Assembly (NCBI GenBank): GCA_902766725.1
Contig: CACXEQ010000004.1
Location: forward strand, 1-34,128
DNA length: 34,128 nucleotides
Reading direction: 5' to 3'
Source of the DNA: an uncultured Ureaplasma sp.
GTDB lineage: Bacteria > Bacillota_I > Bacilli_A > Mycoplasmatales > Mycoplasmoidaceae
The notes under the pieces were generated by a model. That model did no database searches. It had not been told where the DNA came from and saw only the letters and a program-made list of their open reading frames with translations. How positions within the stretch are numbered: the first letter of the stretch is position 1; the number at the start of each line of letters is the position of its first letter. A program made the translations under genes and the position numbers. This document shows, in pieces, positions 3,735 through 33,499 of this stretch.

Positions 3735-5927
3735 ATGAATAAAATATTAAAAATTAATTTGGCCTTATTAATGGTTGGTTCATGAAACATTACAGTTGGT
3801 GGTTTATCATCATGTAGTGTTGAAAAAACTGCTAAAATTAGTAAAGATGAACATTGTGAAATTCATCCTTTACAAGATCATGTTGTTGATGGTCAAGATT
3901 ATATTGTTGAAATCAAATATTTAGATGGCTATGTATTAGATGAAGCAAAAGTAACAATTAATAATATTGTTGTAAGTAAAAATGTAGCATATACGTTTGA
4001 TGATGAACAAAATCGTTTAATTGTTTTTGCTAAATATATAACTGGAAATATTAATATTGAAATTAAAACTAAAATAAATTCTTTTATTAATCCAGAAATT
4101 GAACAAACATTTGAAGCAAAATTTTATAAGCCAAAAAATGATCAGAACTCTCAAGAATGGGTATTAAATGAAAATGAAGATTCTCTTGATGTAACATTCT
4201 TTAAACAAACATCATCTATACCTTACATATCTATAGATAAAATGTTTGACTATTATGATCTACATGATGATGATCATTACAAAATTGTTAATGATGAAAA
4301 AAATATTACAAAAATTATTAATCAACAAAATAATGCTCTAGCAACTGTTGATGCAAATCAGCAAAAAATAATTTTTTCTGACTGAGATAAATTCCTTTGT
4401 AATTCAACAAACGAAACTTTAAAACAAAATCCACTTGCTTCTATATGTTATGATGCTGATAATAATTATATTAAAGTGATTGAATCTAAATCTCATTATC
4501 AAACAAAAAACGAACCATATGAAATGAATTTTAAAAAGTATGATATTAATATTTTTTATAGTCAAAATACTTGTTATTTACCATATGATGTATATTTTGA
4601 ATTATTATTTAGTGAAATTTGACCAACTTATATATTTAATGGACATGATTTTTATCAAAAACTAACTTCTAAATCGTTTTCACTTTATAAAAATCTTGAT
4701 ACTAAATGAATTGATAAACAATACTTAAAATACAATTACAATATTCTTGCTTTAAAATTAGACAATATATATGGATTAGACGAAAGATTGTCCAGATCAA
4801 ATAATTATCAACCAATCAAATATTTATCTAATGGTGCATATGCTGCTTTGGAACCATATAAAGATGGATTAACTTCATTGGAACCAAATAAGTCTAATAA
4901 AACATTAATTAATTTTGTTGCTGAAAATCTAGATGATGGAGGACATACAAGTTATACTAATTCTATTGATTTACTTTCTACTATTAATATGTCTAATCAA
5001 ACTGGTGCAGAAACAATGTACACTAATTATGTTCATAGTGCAATGAATTACGCTAGAGCGCAAGCAAAACTAACACCAGGAGATTTTATGGAATATCCAC
5101 TACCTGTTATGTTTGTTCTTAACAATGGTGATCCTACTTCATATATATATAGAGATCCTAATGATAAAGCTAAATGATTTTATACTAATCCAAATGATGA
5201 AAATGACATAATCATATATGTTGTTTTTGATAAATTTATTCAACCAACCTTAAATGATGGAGGAACATGAAGTATTGGTAAAAATAGTGTTAAATATTCG
5301 AATGTAAATGAAAAAAATTATTATTTTGATACTATTAGATTAACAATGTTTGCTGACAAATTAGTGAGAAAATACAAAAGTGAAAATAAAAAAGTGTCTC
5401 TTGTTGTTGATTTATCTAATAATATTGGTGGAGTTGGTTTTACTGAATGTTTCATTTCCTCATGATTGTGTGGTGAAATAAAACAAGCTGCACAAAATAT
5501 ACACACTGGGTCTTTTAGTACATTTACTTACCAAGCTGATGTTAATAGTGATGGTAAATTTGATGAAAATGATTGCATTCCAGACGATGTTAAAGTATAT
5601 TGTATTACATCAAATGGTTCATTTAGTTGTGGAAGCTTGCTTCCAGTTAATTTAATGGAAAATAAAAAAAATAATATGTTTTTTATAGGCGAACCATCAG
5701 GCGGTGGATCATGTGCTGTAGGACTAATATCTCTCCCAATTATAAGTAGTTATGTTCGTGTTTCATCTTATTACCATTTATTAATGGGTAAATCAACAAA
5801 TGATAATAGATTAACAGTTGATGTAGGTACAAAAGATGCTACATACTTTTATCCTATTTCTAATGATAAATTTGTTGATTTTTTCGACAGAGATACAATA
5901 AATAAAAAAATTTGAAATATCAATTAA
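3735..5927 (+). CDS. Lipoprotein with S41-type peptidase domain
   Basis: The 730-residue protein begins with a lipoprotein signal: MNKILK, a hydrophobic stretch, then GLSSC with Cys27 as probable lipidation site, so it is predicted to be anchored on the outer face of the membrane. The N-terminal ~250 residues are not recognised. The C-terminal part resembles S41 (C-terminal-processing) peptidases as found in mycoplasma surface lipoproteins: VVDLSNNIGG (residues ~556-565), ITSNGSFSCGS with Ser631 as candidate nucleophile, and GEPSGGGSCAVG (~653-664). TGA Trp codons occur throughout. It lies between nrdG and the detached NrdD radical domain, all on the plus strand. The function is unrelated to nucleotide reduction as far as can be seen. 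The S41 assignment is by motif; substrate unknown. Confidence 0.75.
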
Positions 5928-10475: not shown

Positions 10476-13400
10476 ATGAAAAATTTATTTAAAAATACAT
10501 TAAGATCACTTAAAAACAATAAAATTTCTGTTATTGGGTTGGTAATTCTAGTTTTTTTTAGTTTAGGTATTTATTGTGTAATGAATAATACCACAACCAA
10601 TATTTCTAATGCCTATAATAACATTGCTATTAGCGGTAATTTGCATGATTTTGTTGTTAATGAATTATATGATATAGGAAATCCTAGTTTTAAAACAAAC
10701 ACAAACATAGTAGAACAAAAAATTAGTTTTGATAATGATGGCAAAGTTTTGAACCGTTCATATTGTTTTTTACCCAATACTACTAATATCTTAACCACAG
10801 AATTATGAACTGGTCCAAGTCAAATAGATCATAATGATGGGGTTAATTCATATAAAAATATTTATGTCCCGATTCCTGAATTAAAAAAATCTCATGATGA
10901 TACGACAAATGAAATTAAATATACTCGTAATTATGATATATTTTTAGATGCCGAAACATCTGATGGTTTATATCAAATATTTGCTAAATCTAAAAGCCCA
11001 CATATTTGACTTAAAATAAGTATTTCTGATACTTTTAAAGTTAATGAAATCCCCTACTGCTTTCAAGTTTTAGAGAACATTATTAATGAACCTAATGAAG
11101 ATAATCTTAAAAAAATATTTGAAGGCAACGGAAAACAAGATACTGGAAATATTTTTAATTTTGATGTAAGTAGATTTTTGGAATTATTGAATAGTAAAAC
11201 AAATGACATTTACAATGAGATGATCAACAACAATAAACCAGTAGCCAAATTTATTGATAACAATTATAATGGCAAAATAAACTACAAACACTTTAGTGCT
11301 TTAAATGTGACAACTACAAATGACAATATCTACTATAAAATTATAAAATCAAACCCATATGATAAAGTAGATAAAATAGTTTTACTTAATGACCAAAATG
11401 GTCATAGTGGATATAACTTATTTGATATTGAAGATGCATCTGTTTACAATTCTGAAATAGTATTTCATGATCTTGATGGTCAACCTATTCCATCTGGTCC
11501 ATTAGATCAAAAATATGGTAAATTTCAATATTTAACATCTATTCCAAACTCATTTAATGAAATAGCTACAACCAATATTTGTTCTAGAGAAGAATGTAAG
11601 AAATGAACTAATAAATTAGAAAAATATATTTATTCTCAAATTATTCAAATTCGATTTAAACGAATGTTGTCTGGAAATATTACCAATAATAAATATTATC
11701 AACAATTTAGTGAGATAGCTCAAGTTAATTGTAATAACAAACTTGATTACTATAAACAATTGTTTCCAGAAGACTTCTCAGAAGACAAAGACAAAACATC
11801 GCATTTAACTGAACAATATGATGGATATTACAAGAATTTTATTGTTTCTTATAATGAAAATATTAACATTGCTCCAAATGGAACAATTGTTTTTAATTGG
11901 ACTGAGCTTGGAATGGTTCCGCACTCATGCACTATTTCCAACTGAACAACTAATTTTTGTGTAGTTAATCCACAATTTTTGGAAGCAAATAATAGATATG
12001 TTTTGAATTTAGATCATGTTTTAGAATTCAAACCATTTCAATATTGATATACTAAAAATTTTCACCATTTACCAACTTTAGATAAAATTAATAAAAATAT
12101 ATTAATTAAATGGTTCAATTCCCTTAATACTAATGAAATTGCTTTTTGAATTAATCCTAGAAATGCCAAATGTGATGAAAATGGAAATATACAATATTAT
12201 GCAAATATTAACTCTAATGAAGATGAAACAATTATTATTAACAGAGACAATTGACAAGGTATAGATAATAAATATTTAATAACTTGTGGTGGTTTTAACA
12301 AGATAATTATAGGTTGTGGTATAACTCCTGATTTTGTTTATCCTGTTGTTGATTTTAAACGACCTACTCCTAATGCTAAAACTGAATGTTTAATATACTG
12401 CAATAGTCTAGCATATGAAGATACAAAACTAGCTTTTGCCAATTCTAGTGTTGAAGAATATCTAGTAGGAAGTTTTACCAATGCCAATAAACAACAGCAA
12501 CAACAGATAATAAATGAAATCAATGAATGGATTAAGCATGAAAAATTAATGCTTTGACCAAATGAAATGAATTGTACATTTTTTGCCAATGATAAAACCA
12601 ATATGATAACCCCTACTTCTTTTAGAGTTTCTTACATCCCTCAATTAATCAATAACATTAATATAATAACAATTGCTCTTTGCTGCTTTATCGCTTTATT
12701 ATCATTTGTCATATGCATGATCATTGTTAAAAGATTTGTTGAAAAAAACCGTATTAATGTGGGAATCATGTTAGCAAATGGAATAAGAAAATTTAAAATT
12801 GCTTTATCCCTAATTCCGTTTGTTTTAATTCCATCAGTAATAGGAGGAGTGGCAGCATATATCACAGGTTTCTTTTTACAAATTCAAGGAATTAGATTAT
12901 TTCAAAATTATTGAACATTAAAGACTAGTATATTATCTTTTAGTTGACTAGCTATGTTGATATGTGTCATCATTCCATTTATATTATTTATTGGTGTTTG
13001 CTTTATTGCTACTTATTGAATTCTTAAAACTAAGGTTACACAATTAATGAAAAGTGGTTCAGAATTTAAATCTAATAGTTTCTCAAGATGAGTAAAAAAA
13101 CCTTTTAAATATACTAATGTCTTAACTAGATTTAGGATATCTATAGCTTTTAATTCATTACCAAGATTATTAGTTCTTGCTGCTGCAAGTTGTCTAACTA
13201 TGACCTCTTTAATATTTTCTTTTGCATCCTTAAATAAATTGAGTGAATCACAAAACATCAATGCTACCCAAAGTAGTTATAATTTTGATCTAGAATTAAC
13301 AACCCCTACATCTAGTGGTTCAACATATTCTGTGATTGACTTTTCTAAAATTGGTAATATTGATGAAAAAAATAATGAAATTGGAATAGGTTATTCAAAT

Positions 13401-15602
13401 GCTAAAGAGTATGTCTTTAATACTAATTGAAACACCAAAGAAGATGATACTAAAAATTGATATGATCCATATTCATATCCGCAATTAACTAAATATTATG
13501 CTTGAAAAGAAATAAATAGTATAGAAAATGGTGGTGGATTATTCTCAGATGATCCCTATGAATATCGTGAAATTTTAAATAAATTAGGTAACTTGGCTAT
13601 TCCTAACCAAGGAGATAGCAATGGACATACATCTGACTTGTTTTATTTAAATAATAAAATTTTAAGCAAATTAACTCTGGATTATAATATGGGACTAGGA
13701 CCATTGAGTTCAAACCCATGACAAATTGCTTTAGCTTTAATGCCAGCAAGTACTAGAAATACTTGTAATAGTTCTTATCAACAAATAATTGATATTGTAG
13801 GCAAAAAAGTCTATGAAGCTAAAAATAAACAAGATAAATATTATTATGAATATGAATATGAAAATGAAGAAGACAAAAAAACAAAATTTATAGATAATAA
13901 ATTTAAAGAATGTATTAGCAAAAATATTATCTCAAATGAACAAGGTAATTATCACTATCAAATAAATCCTGATAATGTAAAATGAGGTATGTTGGGGGCA
14001 CATCAAGCATTTAATGAATGTTTTATGCGTCTTATAAAAACAATTTTTACTGATATAGATTTAATGCAAATTGAATATCCTATAGCTCATGGTTTTGTCC
14101 CTATTAATTGAAGTAATGATCCTACTAGAAAAAAAGATGAATTTTATACATATATTGATGCATCCATTGATAAAGTAAACTATAAGAAGAGACAGATAAA
14201 AATAAATGGAATAGTTAATAATTCTAATTTTATTAATTTATTAGATGAACATGGAACTAAATTAAATGATCTTCTTTGAAATGAAACATTTCTATCATTA
14301 AAAGAAATTGATAATAAAACAATTTATCCTATTATTGTAAATGCTTATACTGCCCATAAATATAATCTTAAGGTGGGTAGCACTATTGATGTAACAATAA
14401 CAAATACAGTCGATAGATTTGAAAGACAAATTCATCCTGATAAATTCCTTCTAGATACTAGCAATAAAATAAAATGAAAAGTTATAGCTGTTTCTGCCGG
14501 AACAACCAATGATGGTTTTTATTGTCCGCAAGAAGTTGCTAATAAATTAATTGGATTACCTGATGGCAAATCATGAAATAAAACCCATAAATATATGATG
14601 TGATCAAGAGATAATGGTCAAAAAGAATGATCTAAAAAAAATATACCAATGTTGGTTGATATTGCTGGAGTAGAAAAAGATAATATAGGTAAACAATATG
14701 ATCAAATTACAATATATGATTTAGATAAAGATTTATCAGACAAAACTAAACCATGGAAAATAACACATGAAAATAAATCTCAACCTAACTTAAACCCGCC
14801 TATAGGATTTAATGGTATATATACTCAAAATAATGCAGGCAAGCCATTAACCAGCGGCATGTATACATACTCATATACAGGAATGTACCCAGGTACTTCA
14901 GTATATAAATCAAGTAGTAGTATTAATAAAATGACAGATTTATTGAAGATGAATAATAATTTAGCTATTGCTAATCTTGTAACTGGTGTTAATGAACCAA
15001 ATTACTATGATGCATGTGCAAAATGACTTAATCTAACATCTAAGAAAGATGAAAAAGATTATGATTCTCAATATACCAAAATATGTGATGAATTTATTGA
15101 TTTATATTTAACCAAATATTTTGGTAATACTACAATGGTCACAAGCATTTCATCAGCTATAGATGTCCATGCAAGTAATGCTATCTACAAAAACCTTATA
15201 TCTACATTTAACCTAGCTGAATCATCTATCATGTCTATTGTTATTCCTATGACCATTGTTATTGTCTCTATTATTTCAAATTTAATAATTGATGATTCTA
15301 AAAAATTGGCAGCTATGCTAAAAACTCTTGGATATAGTGATGGTAAAAATACTGCTAGTATATTTGCTTTATTTATTCCTGCTATTTTTATTGGATTAAT
15401 AGTCGCTATTCCATTAACAAAATTTGTTATTACAGCTTATCAAAGCATTATTTTTAATTCTGCTAATATACTAGTTAATGTTAAATACACATGATACCAT
15501 TGCTTAACAGCTATAAGTGGTGTTGCTACAATATTAGGAACAAGTTATATAATTGGTTGGTTCTCATTAAAAAAAGATAGATTGATTGAGAGGGTAAAAT
15601 AA
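10476..15602 (+). CDS. Very large FtsX/MacB-type ABC transporter permease
   Basis: A 1708-residue continuous frame with many TGA Trp codons. Two FtsX-like modules are visible. Module 1: membrane helix at ~18-36, an ectodomain of roughly 680 residues, then three helices (~728-750, 772-800, 815-850). Module 2: a helix at ~893-918, a second ectodomain of roughly 650 residues, then three helices (~1582-1606, 1628-1655, 1675-1697). KTLGYSDGKN after the first helix of the last set matches the FtsX-family L..lGy turn. The architecture resembles MacB/LolCE-like permeases, which couple ATP hydrolysis to movement of an extracellular domain. The cognate ATPase starts 2 nt downstream. A comparably sized permease sits near dnaA in M. 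genitalium (MG468). Substrate unknown. Confidence 0.85.
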
Positions 15603-15604
15603 CT

Positions 15605-17035
15605 ATGGATGCAAAAACAATAAAAACATTAAATGACTTGAGAGATTTAAGCATGATAAAAAATAAAAAAAAATCTCATAAAATGTCTTTGTGAATTTTA
15701 AATTTAGATAAATATTATCAAAAATATAAAGTGCTATTTACTAATTTAAAACAAGCTCAATTATCATATGGAGATTTTGAAATCATACCTGATTCTAAAA
15801 CATATAAATTAAAAAAAGAAATTATAAAAAAAATCATTAAAATTGAAAGTGAAATTTTAAAAACAAAATCTAAATTATCTAAATATATAAACAAATTAGT
15901 TTTTGCTCATATGTCTAAAGCTAATAAAAAATCCAACATAACCGCTGATGAACTATATAAAATTCTTTTGATTTATGAAAAACAAGAATTCAAAAATAAT
16001 TACTTCCCATATAGTAGATTAAAAGCAATTATTAATAATAATAAGTTATATCGTAATTGCCAATTCCAACTCATTGTTGCTAAAACTGCTCTAAACAACA
16101 CAATAAAAAAAATACCACAATTTATTAAAAATAAAGGGAAAAAAATATTAAAAAAACAAATTAATATTCTAAACAAAAAGATTGTTCGTTGCCAAGATAG
16201 AAAAAAGAGTTTATATGATGCATTTTTAGCAATGCAACATGCAAAATTAGTTAAAATGCTAGATGCGAAATCACAAAAATTTAATAAAAAGACTAAAGAT
16301 GTTCAAAAGAAAACAAAATATATTATTGACTTAGAAAATGTTACAAAATATTACTACAACAAATGGGTTGCCAATAAAGTTTTAAAAAATGTAAATCTAA
16401 AAATTGAAAAGGGAGAATTTGTAGTTATTCTTGGGCCTTCTGGATCAGGAAAAACAACTTTATTAAATATTATTTCTGGAATGGATAAAGCAACATATGG
16501 AAAAACTATAATTAATAATACAAATTTAATTTGAATGAATGACAAACAATTAACTAAATTTAGGAAAAATAATATTGGTTATATCTTTCAACAATATGGC
16601 TTGTTACCTAATTTGAATGTCCGAGAAAATATAGAAATAGGCTGAGAACTACAAAAAAATAAAGATAAACGATTAGATATTGATGAATTATTAACCACAG
16701 TTGGGATGCAAGATGCTGTAGATAAATTTCCTCATGAATTATCAGGTGGACAACAACAAAGAGTTTCAGTAGCAAGAAGCATGGCTAAAAATCCAGCTAT
16801 TGTTTTTGGTGATGAACCAACAGGAGCTGTTGATCAAGAAATGTCTAAAAAAATAATGCAATTATTTGTTGATATAAACAAAAAATTTAAAACAACAGTA
16901 ATTATTGTTACACACAATCCTATTTTTGCTGATCTAGCAGATAGAGTAATAAAAGTAAATTCTGGAAATATTTTATATAACAGCATTAATAAAAAACCAA
17001 AACAAATAAATGAATTAAATTGGTTGCAAAATTAA
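15605..17035 (+). CDS. ABC transporter ATP-binding protein with long N-terminal extension
   Basis: 476 residues. The C-terminal ~240 form a complete LolD/MacB/FtsE-type nucleotide-binding domain: Walker [10 protein letters not shown] (~277), Q-loop FQQYGLLP, signature [13 protein letters not shown] (~379), Walker B with DEPTGAVD and the switch His in VTHNP. The first ~235 residues are Lys-rich and helical with coiled-coil-like stretches, far longer than in ordinary family members, and have no motif I recognise; they may contact the giant permease. The start ATG follows the permease stop by 2 nt, so the two form an operon. The TAA overlaps the convergent uvrB TAA by two bases within TTAA. Confidence 0.9.
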
Positions 17036-31604: not shown

Positions 31605-31726
31605 TTTGTTGCAATTATTATTATAAATTTTGAAAAGGACACATCAATATGATTTATTTTAATATTGGCATTACAAAATGACATAGTTTTGATTGTATAA
31701 TAATACACACTAACAAAATTTATATT

Positions 31727-33499
31727 ATGTGAAATAAAAACAAACACTTTTTTTCAATTTTATTTTTATCATCATTTTCACCGATAGTTGCAAGTTGTCA
31801 AACAGGAACGAATTTTTTTATTTGTGATTCTGAAATAGCTAAACATGATATCAATGCCTGAAATACATGTATTAATGAAATTGCTAGTTCTAATTGTCCT
31901 ACAATTTATTTAACAGCTGATTCTGCATATTATTTATTACAATCTTCTTTAATATATTACACTAGTTCAGAATTATCTACAAATAATTATCATAACAAAA
32001 ATGATTTTGCTGATCAAATTATGTTAATTTGTTTTAAAAATTTTCAATATAAACTTGGTGCGGATAGTCATAATACATCATTTGGTTATAGTTATTGAAA
32101 TTTATTAGGTGATGCTGGTGGGCAACGGGATGAATATAAAGACATATTAAAATACGGAGTTAGAGATGGAAATCATATGGTAATAACTAACCTTGAGGAC
32201 TTTGATACTGATCATGAAGAATATTCTGGATCTAGTGATAATGAATATTGATGGAGTAACTATATTGTTGTTCAAAAGATTCTTGAAAAAATTTATGCTA
32301 TGTATGATGTATATCAACCAAACATTAATTTTAATTTTGTTATTTTTGATTTTCTTCTTGATAATTTCTTAACAGACTCAAAAAATTCAGTTTATTTACA
32401 AAGAACTATTTATTCTAGAGCAAATAAAATATATTTCTTGTCTGATGGTGGTTATACATATTTTACTTTTACTGATTTATATGCTAAAAGATATGCTGAA
32501 TTTGGCTATATTGATTGCAAAAAGCAAGTTCAGATATGAGATGCTTTACATTCAAATGTTGATAATGATCATAAAAATAGGTTAATACTGCAAAATCCTA
32601 TTGCTTTTTTTAATAATGAAAAATATTGTTTATTTTTTACAGCTGATGATAGTTGATACAAAACTTACTATGACGAAACATGTAATTTATTTCCGGCCAC
32701 AATGATTAAATATGCTTATTCCAATATTAATTGGTTAACACACCAAAGTGATTTTAATTTAAATGATAAGACATTTAGTTCACTTTGTCATTCTATTTTT
32801 TTATTTTTTGATGAAAAAAATGCTTCTGTAATTAAAGATGGTGGTGATTTTGTTTCTTTATATGCCACAAGCGACACATATAAACATTTTGATAGTAAAA
32901 AGAAAAATATAATTATTCCCACTCCTAGTTATATTATTGATGATAATGATATAAGAGATCAAAATATTAGAAATATATTTGATGAAATGTCTAAAACATA
33001 TAGTCCTGATAAATATAATTGAATATTTAAAGGTCATCCTAGAAATGATGAAAATTTATATTATCAAAAAATGCAAAAAATTCTTCCTAAATATTATAAT
33101 AATATTGTTATTTTAAAAATGAAATTTCCACTAGAATTTCTAGTTGTTTTAGATTGACAATTAGCTCAAACTTCAAATATTTATCATATTATTGAACCAT
33201 CATCTTTTATTACTAATCAACCATCAGGATTACTTGGTGGTTGAAGTTTAGATACTACATCAATAATTACATTAATTAATTTGCTTTGTCATCATGTTAA
33301 AGATGGTTACGTTTTGGGAAATGAAAATGCTAAAAAAATATTAGATTTAAACAGTTTATTTATTCCAAATAAATTTAATATTTCATCTGGTAAAACAATT
33401 AATGACTATTTATCGAATTTTTCATCTTTAAGCAATTTATACAAGCGTTTTATAACAACCAATAAATTTGTTGACATTAATTCATTTAAAATAGTTTAG
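31727..33499 (+). CDS. Lipoprotein with glycosyltransferase (bacterial sialyltransferase-like) motifs
   Basis: 590 residues with TGA Trp codons. From ATG 31727 the N-terminus (MWNKNKHFFSILFLSSFS, then PIVASC) is a lipoprotein signal with Cys24 as lipidation site. An in-frame ATG at 31649 has a better ribosome-binding site (GAAAAGGA, 9 nt upstream) but would put 26 residues in front of the signal, so the start is uncertain. The body is unfamiliar overall, but the order IYFLSDGGYTYF (~240), FKGHPRND (His437-Pro438) and IEPSSFITNQPSG (Ser492-Ser493) resembles the D/E-D/E-G, HP and SS motifs of bacterial sialyl- and polysialyltransferases with GT-B fold. Such an enzyme outside the membrane would be unusual. 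Family call is tentative; the ORF is secure. Confidence 0.6.

Follow-up and report, generated by a model that had tools for sequence, protein, structure and literature searches.

A GT80-like glycosyltransferase family among predicted mollicute surface lipoproteins

Introduction

Sialyltransferase-type enzymes require an activated sugar, and that sugar is not made outside the cell. In PmST1 and MhPST, the general base (D141 and E153, respectively) lies in a D/E-D/E-G motif, the histidine of an HP motif stabilises CMP, a lysine two positions before it contacts the base, and a glutamate holds the ribose (PMC5517516, PMC2169525). Members of family GT80 also display a sialidase activity that is raised by CMP, among them the enzyme that is the top structural match in this study (PMC4521712), and their trans-sialidase activity has been ascribed to reverse sialylation (PMC10795189). 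For mycoplasmas, the means by which the cell surface is glycosylated without nucleotide sugars has yet to be settled (PMC12453214). Here we describe a mollicute lipoprotein that resembles GT80 enzymes in modelled fold and active-site residues, together with its relatives across the order.

Results

The window, meaning the whole stretch of DNA analysed, is a contig of 34,128 bases (G000:C4) with a GC content of about 25%, in which TGA is read as Trp; it belongs to a mollicute genome of 615 kb that is 82% complete. The ORF of the GT80-like lipoprotein occupies positions 31649..33499 of the plus strand and is intact, with 616 codons that include ten TGA read as Trp under genetic code 4. Two candidate starts, ATG 31649 (616 aa) and ATG 31727 (590 aa), both retain the VASC lipobox; a Shine-Dalgarno-like AAAGGA (31635..31640, plus strand) precedes the first, and the second has no such sequence. 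Residues are numbered from ATG 31727 (protein P0012), as in the preliminary description of this DNA. Around the gene, scans for promoters and terminators performed no better than shuffles. Nearby lie gltX, an HD-domain gene, an acidic rpoE-like gene and, on the opposite strand, tRNA-Ser, after which come tRNA-Asn, tRNA-Glu and another lipoprotein ORF (33902 onward) that is truncated by the contig end at 34126; within the window, no glycan genes were seen adjoining the ORF. Elsewhere the window holds a transposase-like ORF fragment at the contig start (3-251), a further large lipoprotein (3735-5927, 730 aa under code 4) that matches S41 peptidase below threshold, and a 1708-aa FtsX-like permease with, after it, an ABC ATPase whose N-terminal part is long and coiled (10476-17035).

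What kind of protein is this? By modelled fold and by residues it is closest to CAZy family GT80, with weak sequence support. The GT-B sialyltransferase-like fold proposed in the preliminary description is borne out by an AlphaFold2 model built from a 25-row alignment (pLDDT 85.8, pTM 0.88), which has two Rossmann-like halves and does not scatter the motifs over unrelated surfaces: the predicted active-site residues lie where such residues should, at the ends of strands or the starts of helices. In a structural search of the PDB, the only match at E<1e-3 was the GT80 entry 2z4t (2.5e-5, prob 1.00), the alpha-2,6-sialyltransferase of Photobacterium JT-ISH-224; the matches ranked below it were other GT-B enzymes, and TM-scores of the model to GT80 were moderate, at 0.4-0.5. 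A lipoprotein from an f2 genome (L076), thus from a different mollicute family and about 11% identical to the window protein, gave a less confident model (pLDDT 71.7) whose top seven structural matches were all GT80 (5.7e-10 to 1.4e-7). A viral structure library returned weak GT-B-like matches only.

Direct sequence and profile HMM searches of the PDB with the protein and with family profiles found nothing. Profile-profile comparison with GT80, represented by the GT80 rows of the PDB plus one Vibrio harveyi plasmid member, gave E=6.2e-7 and a score of 58.5; a 69-sequence profile scored 56.3 against GT80, and 60 column-shuffled controls reached at most 21.9. The aligned region spans about 95-125 columns and places H437 and E470 in register. 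The Pfam family PF07388 (bacterial alpha-2,8-polysialyltransferase) matches residues 234-474 at 30.4 bits, above the gathering cut-off of 23.3, in a partial match (positions 124-285 of 316); when 11 close homologs were scanned, only 1 of them also matched. A search of the protein against NCBIfam gave no match, and GT52 was matched neither at E<=1 in Pfam nor in NCBIfam. The nearest solved family proved to be GT80 rather than GT38, GT52 or GT97. Other Pfam matches among the homologs, including KAP_NTPase and 6PF2K, were weak and inconsistent, and we took them as chance.

The four best conserved positions in 65 exported homologs are Glu470, His437, Gly241 and Asp240, which make up the GT80/GT38 catalytic set. 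Asp240, the predicted general base (PmST1 D141, MhPST E153; PMC5517516), lies in an S-D-G-G motif (32441..32452, plus strand) that the model places in the loop between strand 232-238 and helix 242-259; this position is D in 64/65 and E in 1/65, and G241 is present in 65/65. The K-G-H-P motif (33029..33040, plus strand) provides Lys435 and His437, predicted CMP-binding and leaving-group residues (PmST1 H311, MhPST K289/H291), with H conserved in 65/65, K in 62/65 and P in 61/65, and it aligns with FFKGHP of GT80 in the profile comparison. Glu470 (33134..33136, plus strand), found in 65/65 and in register with GT80 SFEVL, is the predicted ribose-binding residue (MhPST E323). By conservation and model, T-T-S 510-512 (33254..33262, plus strand) is the counterpart of the Ser-Ser phosphate motif: T or S occupies position 510 in 62/65 and position 511 in 63/65, and the triplet sits at the N-end of helix 512-521, after strand 501-505. 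Relative to GT80, the first D of D-D-G is Ser/Thr, and Ser-Ser is Thr/Ser.

Two of the three motifs singled out in the preliminary description, SDGG and KGHP, are thus real and above chance (D240, G241, H437 and P438 in 98, 100, 100 and 94% of the 65 exported homologs). The third, E-P-S-S-F (33194..33208, plus strand), whose Ser492 and Ser493 had been named as a donor motif, was rejected, because most homologs are gapped there or carry other letters; the counterpart is T510-T511-S512. Across 11 close pairs of exported homologs, dN/dS is 0.10-0.31, a sign of purifying selection and hence that the protein is kept. In a diverged paralog (L039, G084), which has a signal and a C-terminal transmembrane segment, the DG and HP motifs are gone.

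The N terminus has the features of a lipoprotein: a basic n-region, a hydrophobic h-region and, after this hydrophobic signal, the lipobox V-A-S-C (31787..31798, plus strand), which ends in Cys24 of P0012. Among the 65 aligned exported homologs, 64 have a hydrophobic N-terminal segment and 44 a strict lipobox, and in 15 the C terminus carries a membrane helix and a basic tail. The membrane-anchored, outward-facing placement suggested earlier is therefore upheld at the level of sequence, and we infer that the protein is lipidated and surface-exposed. Sec would carry it out, a lipid tether would hold it to the outside of the cell's only membrane, and the GT80-like GT-B transferase domain would sit outside the cell.

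Relatives were collected from 95 genomes of the same family, a phylum sample and 320 genomes of the order. The family is present in 61 of the 320, about a fifth, in three families (f1, f2, f3), including f2 genomes that are Spiroplasma-like in size; no homolog was found in genus g3 of the window's own family. The closest homologs, in G032 (51-52%) and G033 (33-34%), are both lipoproteins, and exported homologs are mutually about 15-20% identical. One contig-scan match in an Erysipelotrichaceae genome was judged spurious, as no frame with the motifs was seen there. In G023 an extra gene copy lies in pieces (L057:5980-10233) with two transposase-like ORFs between them, and intact copies are present elsewhere in that genome.

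Most exported copies, including that of the window, are single genes among housekeeping genes. In some genomes the exported copy has a glycan context, and there the neighbours act on outside glycans: an acyltransferase-3 (Acyl_transf_3) and a GDSL lipoprotein (L058, L060), GT2 and a GH53 lipoprotein (L057), an HGSNAT-type acetyltransferase (L059), or GT2 near two uncharacterised membrane proteins (L065). Genes for lipoproteins of GH53 (endo-galactanase) type lie at most three genes from the exported transferase in four genomes (L057, L068, L072, L118), a call made by a model run on L057 and by BLAST clustering for the other three. Sialidase-type PF13088 occurs in 6/320 genomes, 1 of them shared with the family, without enrichment, and lyase-type PF00701 in 27/320, 6 of them shared, about what chance would give; in the window's 82% complete genome neither was found. 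Over the 320 genomes, then, no tie of the family to sialidase genes or to those of sialic acid catabolism emerged.

Clear matches to PF02348 (NeuA-type, CMP-sialate-type synthetase) score 93-103 bits, weak ones of 18-37 bits in other genomes of the window's family not being counted as NeuA, and they occur in 5/320 genomes: four are the genomes with a cytosolic homolog, and the fifth, G071, also has NeuB. Among the 57 exported-form genomes, including the window's own (82% complete), none was found. The cytosolic homologs, all in genus g7 (G061, G063, G065, G066), have no signal and start directly with the catalytic body. At L055, L056 and L070, the three of four signal-less loci with wider surroundings read, a sodium:solute symporter lies nearby and the synthetase directly downstream, and in G063 a CMP-sialate-type synthetase also adjoins the signal-less homolog. 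The contrast of 4/4 cytosolic with 0/57 exported genomes would have p=1.9e-6 if these were independent, but the four form a single clade and so count as one event. The exported forms thus seem to have no home-made donor.

Two Bacilli homologs used as the root also adjoin a NeuA-like gene. In the tree rooted on them, a long-branched rooting, the cytosolic clade falls inside the exported forms, beside the window's clade (support 86 for this placement and 95 for the outer branch). This nesting points to an early origin of export in mollicutes, with the signal lost in the cytosolic clade as it gained the donor-making gene. The signal-less homologs L007, L008, L010 and L011 (G066, G065, G063 and G061, respectively) have Asn at the general-base position (P-N-G), which resembles the D141N mutant made in PmST1.

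Discussion

We see an even chance that the exported protein is an active enzyme performing CMP-dependent transfer of a sialic-acid-type sugar outside the cell, a reading drawn from sequence and modelling. Its activity, donor and acceptor are putative: we envisage an inverting CMP-dependent transferase acting on outside glycans, in which Asp240 would be the base, with His437/Lys435 and Glu470 binding the CMP part and T510/T511 contacting its phosphate. Where would the donor come from? Since the cell seems to make none, it must come from the host. It might be CMP-sialic acid released by host cells, as extracellular sialylation with a platelet-derived donor indicates that host cells release donor (PMC6713473). 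A second option, which we judge slightly more likely, is that CMP could be a recycled cofactor, because GT80 enzymes run in reverse with CMP: a sialic-acid-type sugar would be lifted from a host glycan onto CMP and then passed to an acceptor, which could lie on the surface of the bacterium or of the host. The full version of this second option, a surface GT80-derived, CMP-cofactored trans-sialidase or similar trans-glycosylase that has abandoned a nucleotide sugar of its own making and uses scavenged CMP as a recycled carrier to move sugars between outside glycans, is rather unlikely in our estimation. Several points speak against the preferred reading: the hosts of f2 genomes, Spiroplasma-like in size, would offer little sialic acid, sialic acid genes do not accompany the exported form, most exported copies are isolated among housekeeping genes, the TM-scores to GT80 are moderate, and the region aligned with GT80 spans about 95-125 columns.

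Alternatively, the protein may be active and outward-facing, as a GT80-like transferase, but use a sugar other than sialic acid. That sugar could be a different nonulosonate, Kdo-like or unrelated; it would be drawn from a lipid-linked donor or from a glycan of host or bacterial origin and placed on the cell's own outside polysaccharide or lipoproteins. Such an enzyme would fit both the lack of co-occurrence with sialic acid genes and the presence of the family in f2 genomes, as well as the neighbours that act on outside polysaccharide (the GH53 lipoprotein in four loci, Acyl_transf_3/GDSL and GT2), and mycoplasmas do hexosylate surface proteins from exogenous oligosaccharides through an unidentified enzyme (PMC12453214). 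However, every solved relative that has these residues (GT80, GT38) uses CMP-sialic acid, and the cytosolic members adjoin a CMP-sialate-type synthetase; if M. genitalium falls in g3, which lacks the family, the family is moreover not the general hexosyltransferase of that report. We regard this alternative as possible, though somewhat unlikely.

Distinctly unlikely is a GT fold without catalysis that is retained to bind host sialoglycans or nucleotides, as an adhesin or lectin. Mycoplasmas use surface adhesins that bind sialic acid, such as P110 (PMC6203739), the cell seems to have no donor, and in the paralog L039 the two motifs have visibly been lost; yet the general base, the HP motif and the ribose Glu are the best conserved features across sequences only about 15-20% identical, and a lectin would not need Asp240. 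That the N-terminal segment is an anchor of a cytoplasm-facing enzyme is very improbable, for although the polysialyltransferases of bacteria work at the cytoplasmic face, and a putative membrane anchor is described at the N terminus of MhPST (PMC5517516, PMC2169525), the lipobox Cys is present in 44/65 homologs and an N-terminal signal with a basic-tailed C-terminal transmembrane segment in 15, no CMP-sugar synthetase was found in exported-form genomes, and the sole signal-less clade is the one beside NeuA.

Under the preferred reading, CMP-dependent transfer outside the cell, the family would offer bacteria a route to coat cells with, or to edit, host-like glycans, and such bacteria may rebuild their surface sugars from host materials. 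What is at hand is a defined, expressible family, carried by 61/320 mollicute genomes and resembling an intact CMP-dependent transferase placed outside cells without a CMP-sialate-type synthetase. With four species that have NeuA and have lost the signal peptide as a natural contrast, the question of the donor lends itself to direct testing. What is new is a branch of exported proteins found across mollicutes, the missing synthetase, and one switch to a form that is cytosolic and linked to NeuA; in open-access papers we found no description of an exported mollicute GT80-like family.

How does this family compare with known systems? With the surface hexosylation of mycoplasmas it would share glycosylation of the surface without a home-made nucleotide sugar; hexosylation is reported in M. 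genitalium and Syn3A (PMC12453214). Within the window's family, genus g3 has no homolog. With the Vibrionaceae GT80 proteins (2z4t, 4r83 and the Vibrio harveyi plasmid protein) it shares the GT-B fold, the order DG, F-K-G-H-P, E and Ser-Ser, and a strand motif N-x-x-F-x-G-T/S. The Vibrio harveyi protein also opens with a lipoprotein signal (M-I-S-G-C), so that an exported GT80-type protein has a precedent by sequence. By contrast, identity to these proteins is only about 10-15%, the mollicute protein has a longer N-terminal half, Thr for Ser in the phosphate motif and S-D-G for D-D-G, and exported-form mollicutes lack a CMP-sialate synthetase. The GT38 enzymes of PF07388 (MhPST, NmB-polyST) have the D/E-D/E-G and HP motifs, Lys-x-His and the ribose Glu in common with it, but they are cytoplasm-facing capsule enzymes whose donor is made in the cell, whereas the window protein has a lipobox and its fold search prefers GT80. 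If the proposed function holds, a parallel in role would be the trans-sialidase of Trypanosoma cruzi type, which has an unrelated beta-propeller fold and mechanism and uses no CMP: both would bring host sialic acid to the parasite surface without a home-made nucleotide sugar.
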